Assembly (NCBI GenBank): GCA_903868655.1
Contig: CAIPWG010000303.1
Span: 1 to 8,236 of the forward strand
DNA length: 8,236 bases
Direction of reading: 5' to 3'
Source of the DNA: an uncultured Sphingomonadales bacterium
Lineage (GTDB): Bacteria > Pseudomonadota > Alphaproteobacteria > Sphingomonadales > Sphingomonadaceae
Shown here: in pieces, positions 1 to 8,236 of the stretch
Numbering within the stretch: the stretch's first letter is position 1
Layout: each line of letters opens with the position of its first letter
Notes under the pieces: model-generated
Told to the model about the DNA's origin: nothing
Databases searched by the model: none
What the model saw: only the letters and a program-made list of their open reading frames with translations
Translations under genes and position numbers: made by a program

Positions 1-15
1 CAGGAGGAGGGTTGG

Positions 16-780
16 GTGGGGGTGCCCCAGGCCCGAATGGCATGCATCGATGAGGTGTTCGAACACACTTCCTCAACTGTTCCTCCAAGGGGAGGGGCAA
101 GTACGCGACGCCCCAGCCAATGGCAGCCCGGGCTGCACAGCGATATCCACCACACCGAACTGTTCGCCTCTGCCGACGAAGCCAGCGGCGCGGCACTCGC
201 GCTGGCGCTGGCCTGCGATATGACAGATGTCGATCACAGACCATGGCTGTGGGTGCAGGACAAAGCGGCGATTCGCCTGTCGGGGCGGCCCTATCGCCCC
301 GGTCTGCCCGAAGCACTGCGCCATCGGCTGATCCATGTCTCCGCCGACAAACCTGCCGATGCACTGTTCGCCTTGGAAGAAGGCGTGCGCTGCCGCGATC
401 TGGCGTTTGTGATTGGCGAAATCGCTGGCAATCCGGCCGCGCTCGATTTTACCGCTTCGCGCAGGCTCAGTCTGGCGGCGCAACGCCATGGCGTACCCTT
501 GTGGCTGGTGCGCCTGGCGGCGCGGCACGATCTCGGCTCGGCGCGTATGCGCTGGGATGTCGCGGCTGCGCCCAGTCCACCCCCGCGCTGGAACCCTGAT
601 GCTCCGGGCGATCCTCGCTGGCGGGCCGATCTGTTTCGCGCGCATGTGTTTCAACCCGGACAATGGATTCTTGGTCATGACGGAGAACGGCCCGGCCTTG
701 CCGTCTTCACGCCGGATCATGGCGGCCTGGTGCCCGGCGCTGGCGATCGATCGCTGGCGGCTATGCCGGGACGCGCCTGA
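16..780 (+). CDS. imuA: ImuA, accessory protein of the SOS mutasome (short alphaproteobacterial form; start uncertain)
   Basis: ImuA is a RecA/SulA-like partner of ImuB and DnaE2 in damage-induced translesion synthesis in the cytoplasm. The identification rests on the block from about residue 45 onward (HHTELFAS, then RPWLWVQDKAA, GRPYRPGLP, and a Walker B-like strand LAFVIGEI) and on imuB following directly. No Walker A loop (GxxxxGKT/S) is visible, so this short form probably does not hydrolyse ATP by itself. The start is unclear. GTG16 has a good Shine-Dalgarno (AGGAGG at 2-7) and ATG37 is an alternative, but residues 1-42 look non-conserved and contain LexA-like half-sites. A third option is ACG103, 7 nt after GGAGG at 91-95, giving about 225 residues. 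The last 104 bp overlap imuB in a different frame. The function call is fairly sure; the N-terminus is not. Confidence 0.85.
   Translation: MGVPQARMACIDEVFEHTSSTVPPRGGASTRRPSQWQPGLHSDIHHTELFASADEASGAALALALACDMTDVDHRPWLWVQDKAAIRLSGRPYRPGLPEALRHRLIHVSADKPADALFALEEGVRCRDLAFVIGEIAGNPAALDFTASRRLSLAAQRHGVPLWLVRLAARHDLGSARMRWDVAAAPSPPPRWNPDAPGDPRWRADLFRAHVFQPGQWILGHDGERPGLAVFTPDHGGLVPGAGDRSLAAMPGRA
57..82. promoter_or_regulatory. Candidate LexA operator: three GTTC-like half-sites at 11-bp spacing
   Basis: GTTC at 57-60, CTTC at 68-71 and GTTC at 79-82 are each separated by exactly 7 nt. This makes two overlapping copies of the alphaproteobacterial LexA pattern GTTC-N7-GTTC, each with one mismatch in the shared middle half-site. 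imuA operons are normally LexA-controlled, so an operator is expected here. It lies downstream of two of the possible imuA starts (16 and 37), which either places the operator inside the gene or means the true start is further downstream. Tentative because neither box is perfect. Confidence 0.45.
87..95 (+). promoter_or_regulatory. Strong Shine-Dalgarno-like site inside the annotated imuA 5' end
   Basis: AAGGGGAGG contains GGAGG at 91-95. It lies 7 nt before an in-frame ACG codon at 103-105 and just after the LexA-like half-sites, where a real imuA ribosome binding site would be expected. CCTCC at 82-86 can pair with GGAGG at 91-95 across a 4-nt loop, so the site could also be sequestered. 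No in-frame ATG, GTG or TTG follows at suitable spacing. Confidence 0.35.
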
Positions 781-2242
781 CCCGCCCGATCAACCGCTGG
801 TGCTGGTGGGTGAAACCGCCCACGGCCCCCGCATCACCGCTGCCAGCGCCCCGGCGCGGGCCGCTGGCGCGCGTGTCGGCATGTTGCTGGCCGATGCACG
901 CGCAATCGCGCCCGATCTGGTGGTGCATCCGGCTGATCCTGCCGGGGATCGTGCCTTTCTGGAGGCGCTGGCGCTATGGGTACAACGCTGGGGCCCGTGG
1001 AGCGCGCTCGATCCGCCCGATGGGGTGATCGTGGATGTAACAGGGGTGGCGCATTTGTTTGGCGGCGAAGCGGCGCTGATGAACGATGCGCGCGCTTGCT
1101 TTGCTGCGCGCGGCTTGCGCGTGCGGCTGGCGATTGCGCCGACTGCCGGGGCAGCCTGGGCGCTGGCGCATCATGGCCGCGATGGCACTGCATTGCCCCA
1201 TGATGCCGACCCACAAGTGGCCTTGCGCGATTTGCCAGTGGCGGCGCTGCGGCTGGATGAGGCGGTGTTGTTGCTGCTCGAACGGCTGGGGTTGAAACGG
1301 ATCGGCGATCTGGCTGCAATTGGCCGGCCAGCGTTGGCGCGACGGTTTCGTGACCGGCGCGCGCCTGCGGCCAATCCGCTGGTGCGGCTGGACCAGTTTG
1401 CCGGGCGCGTGCCCGAACCTATCCTGCCGGTGCTGACCGTGCCGGTGCCGCTGGTGCAGCGCCGACTGGTCGAACCGGTGCGCCACCGTGCCTTGCTCGA
1501 CCGTGTGGTCGACGATCTGGCCACGGCGCTGGCGCGGCGGCTGGAGGCGCTGGGGCAGGGCGCTCGGCGGCTCGAACTGGGCTTGTGGAAAGTCGATGGC
1601 GATGTGCTGGTGCGCCGGCTCGAACTGGCGGCGGCCACGCGTGACCCGGCGCATATCACCCGGCTATTCGCACACAAGCTGGATGATTGCGACGCCGGGT
1701 TCGGCATCGAAGTGGTGCGGCTGTCGGCTCCCTGGGCCGAACCGTTGGCGCTGACCCAGGTCGATCTCGAATCCGCCGCCGAAAATCACGGCACCAGCCT
1801 GTCGGCCTGTATCGACCGCTTGTCCGTGCGGCTGGGGCCGGGGGCCGTAGCGATGCCGGTGCCGCGCGCCAGCCACATGCCGGAACGCGCACAACGGTGG
1901 GTGCCACCCGATCCGACCGTTGCCACGCAGGAAGAACTGGCTTTCCACGCCCGCCCGCTGAAACTGCTCGACCGCGCCGAGGCTATCGCCGTGATTTACG
2001 AAGCGCCCGACGGCCTGCCCCGCCTGTTCCGCTGGCGCGGCGCGGTGCACGAAATCACCCGCGCCGAAGGCCCCGAACGGATTGCGCCCGAATGGTGGCG
2101 CGAAAGAGGCGGGGTCCGCCTGCGCGATTACTACCGCATCGAAGACAGCAGCGGTCGCCGGTTCTGGATCTATCGCCGCGGCCTGCCAGGCGATGGCCGT
2201 GGTGGCGCGCCAGAGTGGTTTTTGCAGGGGCTGTGCGGGTAA
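677..2242 (+). CDS. imuB: ImuB, catalytically inactive Y-family polymerase-like mutasome adaptor
   Basis: About 521 residues from ATG677. ImuB has a Y-family polymerase fold but acts as a hub that brings DnaE2 and ImuA to the sliding clamp at stalled forks. The N-terminus (RRIMAAWCPALAIDRW) occupies the place of the first catalytic motif without its acidic residues. At about residues 115-122 GVIVDVTG stands where active Y-family enzymes have SIDE, so the catalytic carboxylates are absent, as expected for ImuB. A helix-hairpin-helix-like segment lies at about 194-225 and a little-finger-like region at about 250-385. Q361-V-D-L is at the usual clamp-motif place but lacks the closing aromatic residue. 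The conserved C-terminal region (R481-L-R-D-Y-Y, then RRFWIYRRG) ends at the stop. ATG677 has no clear Shine-Dalgarno, so translation is probably coupled to imuA; ATG644 and ATG719 are alternative starts. Confidence 0.93.
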   Translation: MTENGPALPSSRRIMAAWCPALAIDRWRLCRDAPDPPDQPLVLVGETAHGPRITAASAPARAAGARVGMLLADARAIAPDLVVHPADPAGDRAFLEALALWVQRWGPWSALDPPDGVIVDVTGVAHLFGGEAALMNDARACFAARGLRVRLAIAPTAGAAWALAHHGRDGTALPHDADPQVALRDLPVAALRLDEAVLLLLERLGLKRIGDLAAIGRPALARRFRDRRAPAANPLVRLDQFAGRVPEPILPVLTVPVPLVQRRLVEPVRHRALLDRVVDDLATALARRLEALGQGARRLELGLWKVDGDVLVRRLELAAATRDPAHITRLFAHKLDDCDAGFGIEVVRLSAPWAEPLALTQVDLESAAENHGTSLSACIDRLSVRLGPGAVAMPVPRASHMPERAQRWVPPDPTVATQEELAFHARPLKLLDRAEAIAVIYEAPDGLPRLFRWRGAVHEITRAEGPERIAPEWWRERGGVRLRDYYRIEDSSGRRFWIYRRGLPGDGRGGAPEWFLQGLCG

Positions 2243-2383
2243 GGGGTCGTTACGCGCCGCGTCATGGTGGGGGCAGGCCTGATGGTTGGTTGGGGCATGT
2301 CGGCGTTCCGCTGGGGTGCTGCCATCGTCACTTTGCCCATTCAGGTGCTGGCGTTATCGGCGATCGGAACATACAAGGAACAT
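2243..2383 (+). promoter_or_regulatory. Intergenic region with probable internal SOS promoter
   Basis: This is the only real gap in the window, 141 bp between the imuB stop and the radical SAM start. The open frame continues upstream to an ATG at 2264, but that stretch would add a hydrophobic, non-conserved leader to a cytosolic enzyme, so I read it as non-coding. A weak promoter can be proposed: TTTGCC at 2332-2337, a 16-nt spacer, and TTATCG at 2354-2359. A LexA box lies just downstream. No convincing terminator hairpin is visible, so read-through from imuAB is likely as well. Confidence 0.4.
2367..2381. promoter_or_regulatory. Perfect alphaproteobacterial LexA (SOS) box
   Basis: GAAC (2367-2370), seven bases, GAAC (2378-2381) matches exactly the GAAC-N7-GAAC operator known for LexA in Alphaproteobacteria. 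It ends 2 nt before the radical SAM start codon at 2384 and overlaps its Shine-Dalgarno (AAGGA at 2375-2379). Position and perfect match support direct SOS control of the radical SAM-udgX-dnaE2 part of the cluster. An eight-base match can arise by chance, but its location in the single intergenic gap makes that less likely. Confidence 0.75.
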
Positions 2384-3628
2384 ATGACACAACTGGGCAC
2401 GCTCGAAAAACTCGCGATTCTGGCCGATGCGGCGAAATACGATGCCTCGTGCGCGTCATCGGGTACCACCCGGCGTGACAGCAAAGCGAGCAAGGGGATC
2501 GGATCGACCGAGGGCATGGGCATCTGCCATGCCTATGCGCCCGATGGGCGGTGCATTTCGCTGTTGAAGGTGTTGTTGACCAACCACTGCATTTTCGACT
2601 GCCATTACTGCATCAACCGCAAGAGCTCGAACGTGCGGCGCGCGCGGTTTTCGCCGCAAGAGGTCGCCGATCTGACCATGGCGTTCTATCGCCGCAACTA
2701 TATCGAGGGGCTGTTCCTGTCGTCGGGGATCATCAAAAGTTCCAGCCACACGATGGAACAGTTGATCGAATCCGCCAGAATCTTGCGTGAAGAGCATGAA
2801 TTCAAGGGCTATATTCACCTCAAGACAATCCCCGAGGCCGATCCCGAACTGGTCCGCCGCGCCGGGCTTTTTGCTGATCGCGTGTCGATCAATGTCGAAT
2901 TGCCGACTGTGGCCGGGCTGACCAGCCTGGCACCCGACAAATCGGCCCCGCGTATCGAAGGCGCGATGGATCTGATGGCAGGCGCGATTGTCGAAGGGCG
3001 CGATGCGCGGCGTCGGTTTCGCCATGCCCCGCGCTATGCCCCGGCCGGGCAATCGACCCAGATGATTGTGGGGGCCGATGCGGCGAGCGATGCCGATGTG
3101 ATGACCAAATCGGTGGGGCTCTATGGCCGTTTCGGTATGCGTCGGGTTTATTATTCCGCATTCAGTCCGATCCCCGATGCCAGCGCGGTCTTGCCGCTCA
3201 AACGCCCGCCGTTGATGCGCGAACACCGGTTGTACCAGTCCGACTGGCTGTTGCGGTTTTATGGCTATACGCTCGACGATGTGCGTGCGGCAGCAGATCC
3301 GGGCGGGATGCTGCCGCTCGATATCGATCCCAAACTGGCGTTTGCGCTCAAATTCCGCGACCGCTTCCCGGTCGATGTGAACCGCGCCCCGCGTGAAGCA
3401 TTGTTGCGGGTGCCGGGGCTGGGGGTGCGTGCGGTGTCGGGTATTCTGTCGGCCCGGCGTCAGCGGCAGCTCGATCTGGCCGATCTGGCGCGGCTGACCG
3501 TGTCGCTGACCAAAGTGCGCCCGTTCATCATCGCGGCCGACTGGCGCCCCGTGCTGCTGGCCGACCGGGACGATTTGCGGCCGCTGGTCGCACCACGCAG
3601 CGCCGAACAGCTGGAACTGTTCGCATGA
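2384..3628 (+). CDS. Putative DNA modification/repair radical SAM protein (TIGR03916 type, SplB-like)
   Basis: 414 residues, the usual size of this family. Radical SAM enzymes use a [4Fe-4S] cluster to cleave S-adenosylmethionine and start radical chemistry; this family resembles spore photoproduct lyase and is suspected of acting on DNA, but its substrate is unknown. The cluster motif is C69-x3-C73-x2-C76 within TNHCIFDCHYCINRK. Further cysteines lie at 23, 48 and 57. The N-terminal TLEKLAILADAAKYDASCAS block is a family hallmark and fixes the start at ATG2384, which has AAGGA upstream; the in-frame ATG2264 is rejected. A helix-hairpin-helix DNA-binding segment lies at about 335-360, with V343-P-G-L-G at its core. 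The last residues are Q409-L-E-L-F-A, matching the QL(S/D)LF sliding-clamp-binding consensus. It overlaps the UdgX-fusion gene by ATGA, so the two are probably made together and function together. Confidence 0.93.
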   Translation: MTQLGTLEKLAILADAAKYDASCASSGTTRRDSKASKGIGSTEGMGICHAYAPDGRCISLLKVLLTNHCIFDCHYCINRKSSNVRRARFSPQEVADLTMAFYRRNYIEGLFLSSGIIKSSSHTMEQLIESARILREEHEFKGYIHLKTIPEADPELVRRAGLFADRVSINVELPTVAGLTSLAPDKSAPRIEGAMDLMAGAIVEGRDARRRFRHAPRYAPAGQSTQMIVGADAASDADVMTKSVGLYGRFGMRRVYYSAFSPIPDASAVLPLKRPPLMREHRLYQSDWLLRFYGYTLDDVRAAADPGGMLPLDIDPKLAFALKFRDRFPVDVNRAPREALLRVPGLGVRAVSGILSARRQRQLDLADLARLTVSLTKVRPFIIAADWRPVLLADRDDLRPLVAPRSAEQLELFA

Positions 3629-5019
3629 CCGGGCTGTTGGCGCGGGTACGCGTATCGGTGGCTGCGCACGATGATTTCGATGGCTGGCGCGACAGCGCGC
3701 GGCAGTTGATTCAGGCCGGGGTCGCGCCCGAACGGATTGCCTGGGCCTTGCCGGGGGATCACGCTGGCGATCTGTTTGCGGGCGACGCGCCGCCGGCCGC
3801 GCCAGCCCGTGCGCCAGCGGTCCGTGCCTCGCGTGATTTTCTCGATCTGGCCGGGCGTGCGGTGCTGCATGCCGATCCGCGCCGGTTTGATCTGCTCTAT
3901 CGTGTGCTGTGGCGGTTGCAGAGCGCGCCCCGGCTGATGGCCGATCGTGCGGACCCCGATGTGCGCGCGATCGATGCGCTGGCCCGCACGGTGCGCCGTG
4001 ATATGCACAAAATGCGGGCTTTTGTGCGGTTTCGCGTGGTCGAGGATGCGCAAGGCGAGACGTATGTGGCGTGGTTTGAGCCTTCGCATCATATCTTGCG
4101 CACCAATGGCGCGTTTTTCGTGCGGCGCTTTGCAGGAATGCGCTGGTCGATTCTCACCCCGCAAGGCGCGCTGCACTGGGATGGCGAAACCTTGCGCGAA
4201 GGACCGCCCGCCAATCGCGCCGACGCCCCGGCAGGCGATCCGGCCGAGGCGCTGTGGCGTACTTATTATGCCTCCATCTTCAATCCGGCGCGGCTCAAGA
4301 TCGACGCGATGGTCAAGGAAATGCCGCGCCGGTACTGGAAAAACCTGCCCGAGGCCGATCTGATCCCTGCGTTGATTGCTTCGGCGCAAGCGCGAGAAGC
4401 GGCGATGATCGCGTTGGGCGGCGAAGACTCGGGCCGCGCGCCCGACAGCCTGCCTGCGCTCGATGCGGCGGTGGCGGCGTGCCGGCGCTGTGCCATCGGG
4501 TGCAATGGCACCCGCGCAGTGCCCGGGCATGGGCCAGCCGATGCCAGGCTGATGGTGGTCGGCGAACAGCCGGGGGATCACGAGGAACTGGCCGGACGCC
4601 CGTTCATTGGCCCAGCAGGCCAAGTTTTGCGCGATCATGCGCGCAGTGTGGGGCTTGATCTCGATACGGCGCGGATCAACAATGCGGTGCGGCATTTCAA
4701 ACATCTGCGGCAGGGCAAACAACGGCTGCACCAGACCCCGACTGCGCGCGAAATTGATACGTGCCGCTGGTGGCTCGATGCCGAACGCCAACTGGTGCGC
4801 CCGCGCGTGGTCCTGGCGCTGGGGGCAAGTGCGGCGCGCGCGCTGCTGGGGCGCACTGTCAGCGTGCAACAGGAGCGCGGGCGGTTCGTTCCGCTCGATG
4901 ATGGCGCGCAGCTGTTGATCACCAATCACCCGGCCTATCTGCTGCGGTTGGGTGAGGCTGCACGCGTCGAAGAGGCAGCGCGGTTTGCCGCCGATCTCGC
5001 GCTGGTGGCGCAAGAGTGA
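3625..5019 (+). CDS. DUF4130/TIGR03915 domain fused to UdgX-family uracil-DNA glycosylase domain
   Basis: 464 residues in two parts. Residues 1 to about 260 match the 'probable DNA metabolism' domain (TIGR03915/DUF4130) that accompanies the radical SAM family; recognisable pieces are RRDMHKMRAFVRFR, WFEPSHHIL and RRYWKNLPE. Its function is unknown. Residues from about 275 to the end form a UdgX-type domain of the uracil-DNA glycosylase superfamily. UdgX proteins excise uracil and stay covalently bound to the abasic DNA through a histidine. Visible motifs are C286-x2-C289 and C380 (probable iron-sulphur ligands; C293 is extra), G313-E-Q-P-G-D motif 1, N353-A-V-R-H-F, the insertion loop K365-Q-R-L-H369, and N434-H-P-A-Y-L-L. 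H369 is in the place of the nucleophile (H109 in the Mycobacterium smegmatis protein, where the loop reads KRRIH). The start overlaps the upstream stop; dnaE2 begins 6 nt downstream. Confidence 0.92.
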   Translation: MTGLLARVRVSVAAHDDFDGWRDSARQLIQAGVAPERIAWALPGDHAGDLFAGDAPPAAPARAPAVRASRDFLDLAGRAVLHADPRRFDLLYRVLWRLQSAPRLMADRADPDVRAIDALARTVRRDMHKMRAFVRFRVVEDAQGETYVAWFEPSHHILRTNGAFFVRRFAGMRWSILTPQGALHWDGETLREGPPANRADAPAGDPAEALWRTYYASIFNPARLKIDAMVKEMPRRYWKNLPEADLIPALIASAQAREAAMIALGGEDSGRAPDSLPALDAAVAACRRCAIGCNGTRAVPGHGPADARLMVVGEQPGDHEELAGRPFIGPAGQVLRDHARSVGLDLDTARINNAVRHFKHLRQGKQRLHQTPTAREIDTCRWWLDAERQLVRPRVVLALGASAARALLGRTVSVQQERGRFVPLDDGAQLLITNHPAYLLRLGEAARVEEAARFAADLALVAQE

Positions 5020-5025
5020 TCGGCC

Positions 5026-8000
5026 ATGCCCGAAGCGCCGCTGACGCCTGAACGCCGCCATGCTGTGCCCGATGGGGGCGCTGCGCCACTTGTGCCCGCA
5101 CCCTTTGTTGAACTGGGGGTGATGAGCTGTTTCTCGTTTTTGCGCGGGGCCTCGGACGCGGTCGATCTGGTCAGCGCCGCGCGTGCGCTGGGCTATGACG
5201 CGATCGGGATTGCCGATGCCAATTCGTTGGCGGGCGTGGTGCGGCTGCATAACGAGGCGCAGACAGTCGGTCTGCGCCCCATCATTGGTTGCCGCATCGA
5301 AACCACCGAGGGATTGGCATTTTGGGCCTATCCGCAATCGCGCGCGGGCTATGGCCGACTGTGTCGGCTGATTTCGCTGGGGCGCATGACCACGCCCGAA
5401 GGAGAATGGCAGGACAAGGGCATTTGCGACATTACGCTGGCGATGCTGAGCATCCATGCCGAAGGTATAGCCTTGGTGGTAATTCCGCCGCGCGACCTTG
5501 ATCAACGGCTGACGATCGCGGTGCCAAGTAATGTTGTGGCATTGGGCACCGATTCCCCACTGGCCATGACCAGCCTGTCCACTGATTTTGCCGGACTTAT
5601 TCCCCATCTTGTCCACAACCTGCCGAGCATGCGGCATATCGCGGCGGTCTGGCTGCATCGCGGCGACGATGTGGCGCGGATCAATGCGCTTGATGCTCTG
5701 GCGCAGACGCATGGAATGACACTGCTTGCCAGCAACGATGTGCTTTATCACGAAGCGGCACGGCGCCCGTTGCACGATGTCATGACTGCAATCCGTCATC
5801 GTACGACAGTCGCCGCCGCCGGGCACTTGCTGGAAGCGCATGGCGAGCGCCACCTGAAATCGCCCGCTGAAATGATCCGGCTGTTTGAACGCTGGCCCCA
5901 TGCGATTGCCGCAACGCGCGTGCTGGCCGATGCCTGTACTTTTGCGCTGACCGAATTGCGTTATGAATATCCCGAGGAAATCTGTCCCGACGGGCGCGAT
6001 CCGCAAGGTTGGCTGGCCGAACAGACCCACGTGGGGGCCGCGTGGCGCTATCCGGCGGGCGTGCCCGAAGCCGTGGCTGAAACGCTGGAGCGCGAACTGG
6101 CGCTGATCGGCAAGCTGAACCTTGCGACCTATTTTCTGACGATCAAGGACATTGTTGATTTTGCGCGCGCGCAAGAACCGCCGATCTTGTGCCAGGGCCG
6201 CGGATCGGCAGCCAATTCGGCGGTGTGTTATTGTCTGGGTATCACCTCGGTCGATCCAGCCAAACATGCGTTGTTGTTCGACCGGTTTATTTCCGAAGAG
6301 CGCAAGGAACCGCCCGATATCGATGTCGATTTCGAACACGAACGGCGCGAGGAAGTGATCCAGTATATCTATCGCCGCTATGGCCGCCATCGCGCCGGGC
6401 TGTGCGCCACGGTCATCCACTATCGCCCGCGCATGGCGATCCGCGAAGTGGGCAAGGCGATGGGGCTGACCGACGATGTCACCGGCGCTTTGGCGCGCAC
6501 CGTGTGGGGCAGTTGGGGCGATGAGATGGGCACGCGCCAGGTCACACAGGCCGGTTTCGATCTGTCTGACCCGCATTTGCGCAGGGTCATCCGTCTGGCC
6601 GAACAGATGATCGGCATGCCGCGCCATCTGTCGCAGCACGTCGGCGGGTTTATCCTGACGCAGGGTCCTTTGATCGAAACCGTACCAGTGGGCAATGGCG
6701 CGATGCCTGACCGCAGTTTCATCGAATGGGACAAAGACGATATTGATGTGCTGGGCATCATGAAAGTCGATGTCTTGGCGCTGGGCATGCTGACTTGCAT
6801 CCGTAAATGCCTCGATCTGCTGGGCGTGCATCATGGCCGCGATCTGACGCTGGCGACCGTGCCGCGCGAAGACCCGGCGGTCTATGACATGCTGTGCCGG
6901 GGGGATTCGCTCGGGGTGTTTCAGGTCGAAAGCCGTGCCCAGATGAACATGCTGCCGCGCCTGCGCCCGCGCGAATTCTATGATCTGGTGGTCGAAGTCG
7001 CGATCGTGCGCCCGGGCCCGATCCAGGGCGACATGGTGCACCCTTATCTCAAACGCCGCCGCGGGGACGAAGCGGTGGTGATCCCCGCGCCCGATCCACG
7101 CCACGGTCCCCCCGATGAACTGACCTCGATCCTGGCGCGGACGTATGGCGTGCCGATTTTTCAGGAACAGGCCATGAAAATCGCGCTCGATGCTGCGAAG
7201 TTTTCGAGCCTTGAGGCCAACCAGTTGCGCAAGGCGATGGCGACATTCCGCAGTCGGGGCATGGTGCATGAACTGGAAGAGATGATGGTCGGGCGGATGA
7301 TCAAACGTGGCTATGATCCCGATTTTGCCGCGCGCTGCTTCAATCAGATCAAAGGTTTTGGCGAATATGGCTTTCCTGAAAGCCACGCGGCCAGCTTTGC
7401 GCATCTGGTCTATGTCTCCAGCTGGCTGAAATGCCACTACCCGGCAGCGTTTGCCTGTGGCTTGTTGAATTCGCAGCCGATGGGATTTTACGCGCCCGCG
7501 CAGATTGTGCGCGATGCGCGCGATCATGGCGTAGAGGTGCGGCCACCGGATGTGAACCACAGCGAATGGGATTGCACGCTGGAAGGGGCTGCGCTGCGGC
7601 TTGGTTTTCGCCAGATTGATGGCCTGTCAGAAATTCACGCCGCCGCATTGGTCGCCGCGCGCCAGCACGAGGGGCGATATGGTGATCTGGCTGATTTGCG
7701 TAGCCGGGCCGGGCTGTCGCCGGCAGTGATCGAGCGGTTGGCGACGGCCGATGCTTTCGGTTCATTGGGCGCATCGCGGCGCGAGGCGTTGTGGCAGGCG
7801 CGCAGCCTGATTGCCGCACCCGATCTGCCGTTGTTTGCCGCGATGCGCGCGCGCGACGAAGGGGTGGAGGCCGTGCGCGCGCGGTTGCCGGTAATGCCCG
7901 CAGGCGAAGAAGTGGTGGCCGATTACCAGACGCTGCGTCTCTCGTTAAAGGCGCATCCGCTGGCGTTCCTGCGTCCGCGTTTGGCTGAACGCGGGTTTGT

Positions 8001-8236
8001 GCGTTCCTGTGACCTCAAAACGCGCAAGACCCGCGCGATGGTCCATGTCGCGGGCGTGGTCCTGGTACGGCAACAACCGGGCAGCGCCAAAGGCGTATGC
8101 TTCATCACGCTGGAAGACGAAACCGGGGTGATCAATCTGGTGATCTGGCCCGATCTGAAGGAAAAACAGCGCAAAGTGGTGATGGGTGCACGGCTGATGG
8201 AAGTGCGCGGCCGGGTTGAATACGATGATGAAGTGA
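5026..8236 (+). CDS. dnaE2: DnaE2, error-prone DNA polymerase III alpha-like subunit (3' end outside window)
   Basis: DnaE2 (also called ImuC) is the C-family polymerase that performs SOS-induced mutagenic bypass with ImuA and ImuB. The frame is open for 1070 codons to the window edge with no frameshift; full-length members are about 1,080-1,100 residues, so only the C-terminal tip is missing. Order: a degenerate PHP domain (about 27-290), palm with G391-R-G-S-A-A-N-S, catalytic aspartates in P430-D-I-D-V-D435 and D582 (KVDVL), then fingers and helix-hairpin-helix regions including GFGEYGFPESHAASFA. D933-L-P-L-F is at the place of the clamp motif in replicative DnaE. An OB-fold begins at about residue 1005 (VHVAGVV, then GVINLVIWPD). 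In the PHP domain L30-G-V-M-S replaces LHxHS and A63-D-A-N replaces TDHN, so metal binding and proofreading there are very unlikely. The start is ATG5026, 6 nt after the udgX stop, with only a weak Shine-Dalgarno, suggesting coupling. Confidence 0.97.
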   Translation, partial: MPEAPLTPERRHAVPDGGAAPLVPAPFVELGVMSCFSFLRGASDAVDLVSAARALGYDAIGIADANSLAGVVRLHNEAQTVGLRPIIGCRIETTEGLAFWAYPQSRAGYGRLCRLISLGRMTTPEGEWQDKGICDITLAMLSIHAEGIALVVIPPRDLDQRLTIAVPSNVVALGTDSPLAMTSLSTDFAGLIPHLVHNLPSMRHIAAVWLHRGDDVARINALDALAQTHGMTLLASNDVLYHEAARRPLHDVMTAIRHRTTVAAAGHLLEAHGERHLKSPAEMIRLFERWPHAIAATRVLADACTFALTELRYEYPEEICPDGRDPQGWLAEQTHVGAAWRYPAGVPEAVAETLERELALIGKLNLATYFLTIKDIVDFARAQEPPILCQGRGSAANSAVCYCLGITSVDPAKHALLFDRFISEERKEPPDIDVDFEHERREEVIQYIYRRYGRHRAGLCATVIHYRPRMAIREVGKAMGLTDDVTGALARTVWGSWGDEMGTRQVTQAGFDLSDPHLRRVIRLAEQMIGMPRHLSQHVGGFILTQGPLIETVPVGNGAMPDRSFIEWDKDDIDVLGIMKVDVLALGMLTCIRKCLDLLGVHHGRDLTLATVPREDPAVYDMLCRGDSLGVFQVESRAQMNMLPRLRPREFYDLVVEVAIVRPGPIQGDMVHPYLKRRRGDEAVVIPAPDPRHGPPDELTSILARTYGVPIFQEQAMKIALDAAKFSSLEANQLRKAMATFRSRGMVHELEEMMVGRMIKRGYDPDFAARCFNQIKGFGEYGFPESHAASFAHLVYVSSWLKCHYPAAFACGLLNSQPMGFYAPAQIVRDARDHGVEVRPPDVNHSEWDCTLEGAALRLGFRQIDGLSEIHAAALVAARQHEGRYGDLADLRSRAGLSPAVIERLATADAFGSLGASRREALWQARSLIAAPDLPLFAAMRARDEGVEAVRARLPVMPAGEEVVADYQTLRLSLKAHPLAFLRPRLAERGFVRSCDLKTRKTRAMVHVAGVVLVRQQPGSAKGVCFITLEDETGVINLVIWPDLKEKQRKVVMGARLMEVRGRVEYDDEV

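Follow-up and report, generated by a model that had tools for sequence, protein, structure and literature searches.

The closest described relative of the genes treated here is an operon of a COG1573 uracil-DNA glycosylase (UDG) and a COG4277 gene, which is reported from the SOS networks of Bacteroidetes, with citations for Verrucomicrobia and Caulobacter, and described as a putative base-excision-repair system (PMC8565304). The SOS network of Aravind et al. 2013 ties DUF4130 to SplB-like radical SAM proteins and UDGs, and a figure legend of that paper mentions DUF4130 as a predicted mutagenesis-related enzyme (PMC3765255). The role of UdgX is stated as largely unknown (PMC10359453). We analyzed a stretch of 8236 bases (the window), the entire contig C303 (CAIPWG010000303.1) of an uncultured Sphingomonadales bacterium (assembly of 2.93 Mb, 85% complete). 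It codes for a radical SAM (S-adenosylmethionine) protein of the family TIGR03916 (rSAM in the following), which we take to be a COG4277-type protein and whose nearest named relative is that of Novosphingobium sp. FSW06-99 (93% identity). A DUF4130-UdgX fusion gene and dnaE2, the gene of an error-prone polymerase, follow behind it. We propose, tentatively and with slightly more doubt than confidence, a LexA-headed run rSAM-DUF4130-UdgX-dnaE2, in which a clamp-tied rSAM together with DUF4130 would act on damaged bases, UdgX would cap uracils and DnaE2 would copy.

The window shares with the Bacteroidetes operon a UDG and, if our COG4277 assignment holds, a COG4277 gene under predicted LexA control. 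The available account of that operon is silent on a clamp-binding tail, on UdgX crosslinking and on an embedding in imuA-imuB-dnaE2; the window shows the tail and the embedding. As SOS control of the UDG-COG4277 pair is already published, SOS control as such is not new here. The available part of PMC3765255, unlike the present analysis, contains no operon anatomy, no LexA box survey and no clamp motif. With the ImuA-ImuB-DnaE2 cassette the locus has in common the gene order, the shared direction and, in relatives, a LexA-type box before imuA. Here, the cassette is split by rSAM and DUF4130-UdgX with a box of their own, and dnaE2 is the last gene visible in the run.

The rSAM gene (2384-3628, plus strand) codes for 414 residues and scores 549 bits against TIGR03916 (cut-off 343.5). 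Its start is most likely the ATG at 2384 rather than the first in-frame ATG at 2264; the TIGR03916 match begins at residue 8 of the product from ATG 2384. A LexA-type box, GTTC-N7-GTTC (2367-2381, minus strand), ends 2 nucleotides before this ATG and has the printed form of Caulobacter LexA boxes (PMC12700426). The pattern occurs once in the window where 0.13 occurrences are expected, and 23 of 200 shuffled windows contain it at least once; the match alone is therefore not rare, and the weight rests on its conservation in relatives. Among 80 Sphingomonadales loci fetched with rSAM (first set), 78 possess the box within 300 nucleotides upstream of rSAM, with 0.029 expected per locus. Where imuB or dnaE2 is close by, it precedes rSAM in 36 of 36 loci, where they are not in 41 of 43, and it is also present in the one short locus (1/1).

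A second set comprised 83 proteobacterial genomes, 13 of them from the window's family, and may overlap with the first set. The alphaproteobacterial box type was found in 54 of 54 alphaproteobacterial and 0 of 29 gammaproteobacterial loci, the E. coli type CTGT-N8-ACAG in 19 of 29 gammaproteobacterial and 0 of 54 alphaproteobacterial loci. We take this to mean that operator and LexA changed in step at an unchanged target gene, an indication of selection on SOS control. The window itself has a LexA box of its lineage's own type at the predicted promoter. It is very likely that the rSAM-DUF4130 pair is part of the DNA-damage response, and we infer from these sites that it is induced by SOS. The first-pass annotation of the window had placed the pair in an extended mutasome; its very likely membership in the damage response is supported by the LexA-type boxes, and a tight run with dnaE2 in this lineage by the gene order and the short gaps.

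The position of the box also bears on the promoter. In 83 of 126 loci with the GAAC-N7-GAAC reading, a sample in which the window is represented by a copy and two genomes are repeated, the box starts 17 nucleotides before the first in-frame start codon. The 58 aligned Sphingomonadales loci with this spacing conserve T at -35 (89%) and G at -33 (94%) and have a TATAA-like -10 element at -12 to -7, that is, within the box. The window reads TGGCGT in the predicted -35 element (2349-2354, plus strand, positions counted from ATG 2384) and TACAAG in the predicted -10 element (2372-2377, inside the LexA-type box), and its own promoter elements are thus imperfect. From the box spacing and the conserved -35 and -10 elements a leaderless transcript is predicted, which would start at or beside the ATG with LexA sitting on the -10 element; this is a prediction only.

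The genes behind this promoter are closely packed. The ATG of the DUF4130-UdgX gene (3625-5019, plus strand, 464 residues) lies at 3625 and overlaps the rSAM end (stop at 3628) by 4 nucleotides, and the stop at 5019 is separated by 6 nucleotides from the ATG of dnaE2 (5026-8236, plus strand, with the 3' end past the contig end; NF004225, 1363 bits). The co-directional order imuB, rSAM, DUF4130-UdgX, dnaE2 had been noted before with exactly this overlap and gap, and the open reading frames and family calls confirm it in full. We compared 35 loci, the window among them, in which dnaE2 neighbors the pair (embedded set). The gap between rSAM and DUF4130 has a median of -1 nucleotides and does not exceed 60 nucleotides in 30 loci; the gap before dnaE2 has a median of 1 nucleotide, with 28 loci within 60 nucleotides either way, six longer gaps and one overlap of 80 nucleotides. 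No box was found between rSAM and dnaE2 in any of the 35 loci. This box-free run suggests that dnaE2 is expressed from, and likely depends on, the rSAM promoter.

A further characteristic feature is the C-terminus of rSAM, which terminates in ...EQLELFA. Like the LexA-type box, this tail is absent from the first-pass annotation. Its QLELF (3608-3622, plus strand) is a motif of the beta-clamp-binding type; the consensus for binding to the bacterial sliding clamp is QL(S/D)LF, and MutS, DinB and Hda are further clamp-tethered proteins. A strict form of the motif is present in the last 15 residues of 135 out of 169 rSAM orthologues and a looser form in 169 out of 169 (147 out of 147 distinct tails), where both patterns were written after the window tail had been seen and the looser one also after the 34 strict exceptions, and the strict counts are therefore the more impartial measure. 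The 169 proteins are the 171 extracted open reading frames minus one truncated protein and one window copy, and two genomes appear twice. For comparison, background open reading frames contain the strict form in 4 and the looser form in 31 out of 2239 cases, and shuffled tails in 122 and 1550 out of 16900. None of 156 DUF4130 proteins has either form in the last 15 residues, and one has the strict form in the last 20.

More distant proteins were collected with two further queries, each set consisting of close relatives of its one query and thus not of independent samples. QLTLQF-like forms occur in 116 of 116 full-length proteins of the Parabacteroides set, and QLSIF-like forms in 87 of 117 proteins of the Acetoanaerobium set. 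By eye, 28 of the remaining 30 read Q(L/I/M)SFF further upstream, where the motif is not the very end of the protein. In a structure model of rSAM the mean predicted local distance difference test score (pLDDT) is 85, and values below 50 are found at residues 24-46 and 410-412; the tail is therefore a QLxLF-type peptide in a flexible region. The window's ImuB has a candidate clamp motif of its own, QEELAF at residue 418, in a motif scan. Without its clamp motif QLPLWG, mycobacterial ImuB neither forms foci nor supports mutasome function (PMC10421592). The rSAM peptide is of the same Q-L-x-L-F type and stands at the C-terminus. With such a tail rSAM would reach the docking site which is used by the mutasome, and the motif likely fastens the enzyme to the beta sliding clamp.

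The front part of the cassette looks like a unit of its own. The distance between imuB and rSAM has a median of 729 nucleotides (range 41-4045, 33 loci), and a separate box precedes imuA in 32 of 33 loci. The genes thus seem to form two units, imuAB and rSAM-DUF4130-UdgX-dnaE2, each headed by a LexA-type box. A single operon from imuA to dnaE2 was rejected on the grounds of the gap lengths and the second box. In the window the cassette order imuA, imuB, dnaE2 is present, with imuB and dnaE2 clear and imuA partial and weak, but it is not uninterrupted behind one box, as two genes and a LexA-type box lie between imuB and dnaE2. The imuB gene (677-2242, plus strand) codes for a Y-family polymerase homologue with a DUF6504/ImuB-C-type C-terminus (PF00817, PF11799, PF20114). 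The 3' part of imuA (1-780, plus strand) is an open reading frame open at its 5' end that scores 25 bits against NF033429, under the cut-off of 150; the assignment is backed by synteny, with an imuA match at the equivalent position in 33 related loci. As the window is the whole contig, the promoter of imuA itself is outside the view. In the closest named relative (L002 7179-10000), about 2.8 kb lie between imuB and rSAM compared to 141 nucleotides in the window.

These observations could be combined into the following sequence of events. Upon DNA damage the operator would be freed of LexA, which would allow joint production of rSAM, DUF4130-UdgX and DnaE2. By the type of contact that recruits ImuB, the rSAM tail would likely dock on the beta clamp, and rSAM and DUF4130 would apply radical chemistry to a damaged template base. 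UdgX would cap uracils laid open in single-stranded gaps, which DnaE2 would fill together with ImuAB. The radical enzyme and the polymerase would in this way reach the gaps behind stalled forks by a shared delivery. Of the steps in this proposal, regulation has the best support; docking to the clamp is suggested by the tail motif, and the chemistry and the substrate base are the least certain and a guess.

Among the 80 Sphingomonadales loci, 31 contain all parts in the same order and on the same strand, so that the gene order is not due to chance; 41 contain rSAM-DUF4130-UdgX alone, and 8 are of another kind or truncated. In the window's family (119 genomes, its own included) rSAM scores over the cut-off in 81 genomes and DnaE2 in 105. 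Of the 78 genomes with both, 23 have dnaE2 within 10 kb downstream of rSAM on the same strand, and fragmented assemblies may conceal some further linkages in this count. DnaE2 is present in 78 of 81 rSAM carriers compared to 27 of 38 non-carriers (Fisher p 0.0002, kinship ignored). In wider samples, rSAM is found over the cut-off in 7 of 142 evenly drawn Alphaproteobacteria and in 84 of 398 Pseudomonadota. Outside the family, 58 genomes have both genes, and the distance between rSAM and dnaE2 is at most 10 kb in 7 of them, all of one family (f141), as judged from positions compared by eye. The first-pass annotation would have been refuted by a pair that is almost never near imuB or dnaE2 in relatives, which is not the case in the Sphingomonadales. 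Likewise, the description of the pair as embedded inside the mutasome is true for the window, but it is a minority state, and the locus comprises two LexA-headed units.

A number of results weigh against the proposed run and its mechanism, in addition to the after-the-fact wording of the motif patterns. Embedding applies to 23 of the 81 rSAM genomes of the family, and in 55 of the 78 family genomes with both genes rSAM and dnaE2 are unlinked. DnaE2 over the cut-off is missing in 12 of 70 carriers outside the family (one of which has a split DnaE2), so that neither part requires the other. Within the embedded set, the rSAM-DUF4130 gap exceeds 60 nucleotides in 5 of 35 and the gap before dnaE2 in 6 of 35 loci. 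Neither box type was found in 10 of the 29 gammaproteobacterial loci of the second set. Regarding the tail, the looser pattern fits 9% of the shuffled tails, the strict scripted search found none in the 30 remaining proteins of the Acetoanaerobium set, and the motif is absent from the last 22 residues of a Gemmatirosa relative with 36% identity. Clamp binding is backed by sequence alone.

Several of these points would fit another explanation, in which the pair serves SOS base repair in general, merely came to lie between imuB and dnaE2 and is tied to DnaE2 by shared induction alone. The pair is found away from dnaE2 in most carriers (the 55 of 78 genomes in the family and 51 of 58 outside it), and loci with the pair only retain the LexA-type box in the 41 of 43 cases given above. 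A quick tree, calculated without bootstrap, places all 40 of 40 embedded rows in one 57-row clade (Shimodaira-Hasegawa-like approximate likelihood ratio test, SH-aLRT, 97), which also holds 13 unlinked and 4 unknown rows; one insertion could explain the embedding. The rSAM gene was also found on 158 plasmid records. Against this explanation stands a second clade of seven loci (SH-aLRT 100) in another family, in which imuA-imuB-dnaE2 is arranged divergently beside the pair and dnaE2 lies within 10 kb in all seven. This is a second linkage of the pair to the mutasome and supports the proposed run. In addition, dnaE2 is commoner in gammaproteobacterial carriers (19 of 29) than in non-carriers (4 of 25), but not in alphaproteobacterial ones (39 of 41 compared to 11 of 13), in both cases with kinship ignored; the 38 non-carriers of these two samples were a hand-picked spread and count as such because they were unmatched in the Pseudomonadota search. 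The clamp-type tail further suggests a docking site common to the pair and the mutasome. Taken together we regard an association by shared induction alone as somewhat unlikely.

Some of the records deserve a separate remark. The 158 plasmid records include 58 of Phaeobacter and 15 of Paracoccus, and some of them are chromosome-sized. In two alphaproteobacterial regions that were inspected (L177, L178) rSAM adjoins a UdgX gene and has an alphaproteobacterial LexA-type box. A record of 240 kb filed as Acinetobacter phage MD-2021a (L176, CAKLQH020000003.1) contains glyQ, glyS and chromosomal genes on the flanks of rSAM-DUF4130, and looks like a bacterial chromosome contig rather than a phage.

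With respect to the reaction, the family libraries label DUF4130 and the TIGR03916 protein merely unknown or putative. A CX3CX2C motif (C69, C73 and C76; 2588-2611, plus strand), the ligands of the radical SAM cluster, is present in 171 of 171 rSAM proteins. In 53 aligned orthologues these three cysteines and the upstream C23, C48 and C57 are invariant; the latter three may bind an auxiliary iron-sulfur cluster, as is the case in lipoyl synthase. The C-terminal region (3371-3466, plus strand) weakly resembles DNA-binding helix-hairpin-helix domains, with 17.7 bits against PF12836 (cut-off 27) and weak profile matches to ComEA- and RuvA-type chains (best E 0.014). Among the matches listed, the folds nearest to the rSAM model are lipoyl synthase and HydE, a likeness which tells the barrel but not the reaction. 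A PDB sequence search with one rSAM gave nothing better than E 0.73, and no PADLOC model matched two proteins tested at E 0.1.

The cysteines C23, C48 and C57 are the basis for a different explanation, that rSAM inserts sulfur or methylates by means of an auxiliary iron-sulfur cluster and thereby modifies DNA rather than repairing it. Residues 24-46 of the model have pLDDT values below 50 and radical SAM barrels resemble one another, and we consider such a modification unlikely. A further idea is that rSAM resembles spore photoproduct lyase and directly reverses a UV-induced thymine lesion, which the SOS-type control would suit. This is a rather improbable explanation, as no spore photoproduct lyase model is among the 13 NCBIfam matches of rSAM up to E 10, lipoyl synthase and HydE are the nearest folds listed, and SplB is listed as COG1533, apart from COG4277, in the available part of PMC8565304. 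No spore photoproduct lyase occurs among the best 50 rows of each of two fold lists, an absence which excludes nothing.

The fusion protein consists of a DUF4130 domain (3667-4356, plus strand; TIGR03915 228 bits, residues 15-244) and a UdgX domain (4360-5007, plus strand; TIGR03914 273 bits, cut-off 189.95), and it was the UdgX domain that filled the fold-search lists for this protein. The R-loop KQRLH (4717-4731, plus strand), whose His aligns with that of the M. smegmatis R-loop KRRIH, the motif A GEQPG and the motif B-like HPAYLLR are kept in the window. In these features the domain agrees with M. smegmatis UdgX, from which it differs as the rear part of a DUF4130 fusion that is encoded alongside rSAM and dnaE2 (PMC10359453, PMC10776899). 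The R-loop His and the motif A Gln are each kept in 126 of 128 aligned fusions, and both domains share one frame in 141 of 171 loci (window copy included in both counts). In L025 and L111 the two domains were not read in a common frame by a script, owing either to a genuine split or to a frame artefact. The family loci L039, L053, L127 and L132 have about 2.8 to 3.3 kb between rSAM and DUF4130-UdgX, and L065 and L078 have rSAM and a LexA-type box with no DUF4130 or UdgX match within 10 kb on either side.

The UdgX part is not always present. An adjacent fused UdgX is lacking beside rSAM-DUF4130 in 22 genomes, in one of which the gene is cut by the contig end. In 17 of the 22 no UdgX-type match above 36 bits was found anywhere in the genome, and 9 of these 17 have no match whatsoever; the other five score 110, 114, 154, 263 and 305 bits, where the highest score belongs to the genome with the contig-cut gene. 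We quote the 36-bit figure because one of the four control genomes with a fused UdgX (G512) scored 118 bits, under the cut-off, which is thus no clean divider. The presence of UdgX requires at least 10 changes on the rSAM tree. In short, nearly all of the loci examined retain rSAM-DUF4130 as a constant core, with UdgX as an optional part, which weakens the first option of the first-pass annotation, namely that rSAM or DUF4130 resolves UdgX-DNA crosslinks. As the main job of the pair it was rejected on the genomes that keep rSAM-DUF4130 without UdgX; that either protein resolves or limits such crosslinks at all would suit the common frame and the conserved R-loop His, but is very improbable given these genomes, the repeated changes on the tree and the RecA-dependent pathways or proteases suggested for resolution in the available part of PMC10359453.

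In a literature search that left most subscription papers outside its coverage, no paper combined "radical SAM" with "clamp-binding motif". UdgX together with radical SAM was not found, in a search that did not use TIGR03916 by name, nor was the embedding of the pair with dnaE2. The conserved tail of the clamp-binding type gives rSAM a likely place of action, namely the replication clamp. It is conceivable, although we have more doubt here than for the run in the window, that TIGR03916 as a whole represents a class of clamp-bound radical enzymes, which would be switched on by SOS, docked by QLxLF and active with DUF4130 at stalled forks before translesion synthesis. Sphingomonads would have gone furthest by placing DnaE2 under the same operator. 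If this is true, bacteria would possess a step of radical chemistry in physical connection with mutagenic bypass, and co-expression of dnaE2 with it would be expected in these bacteria.

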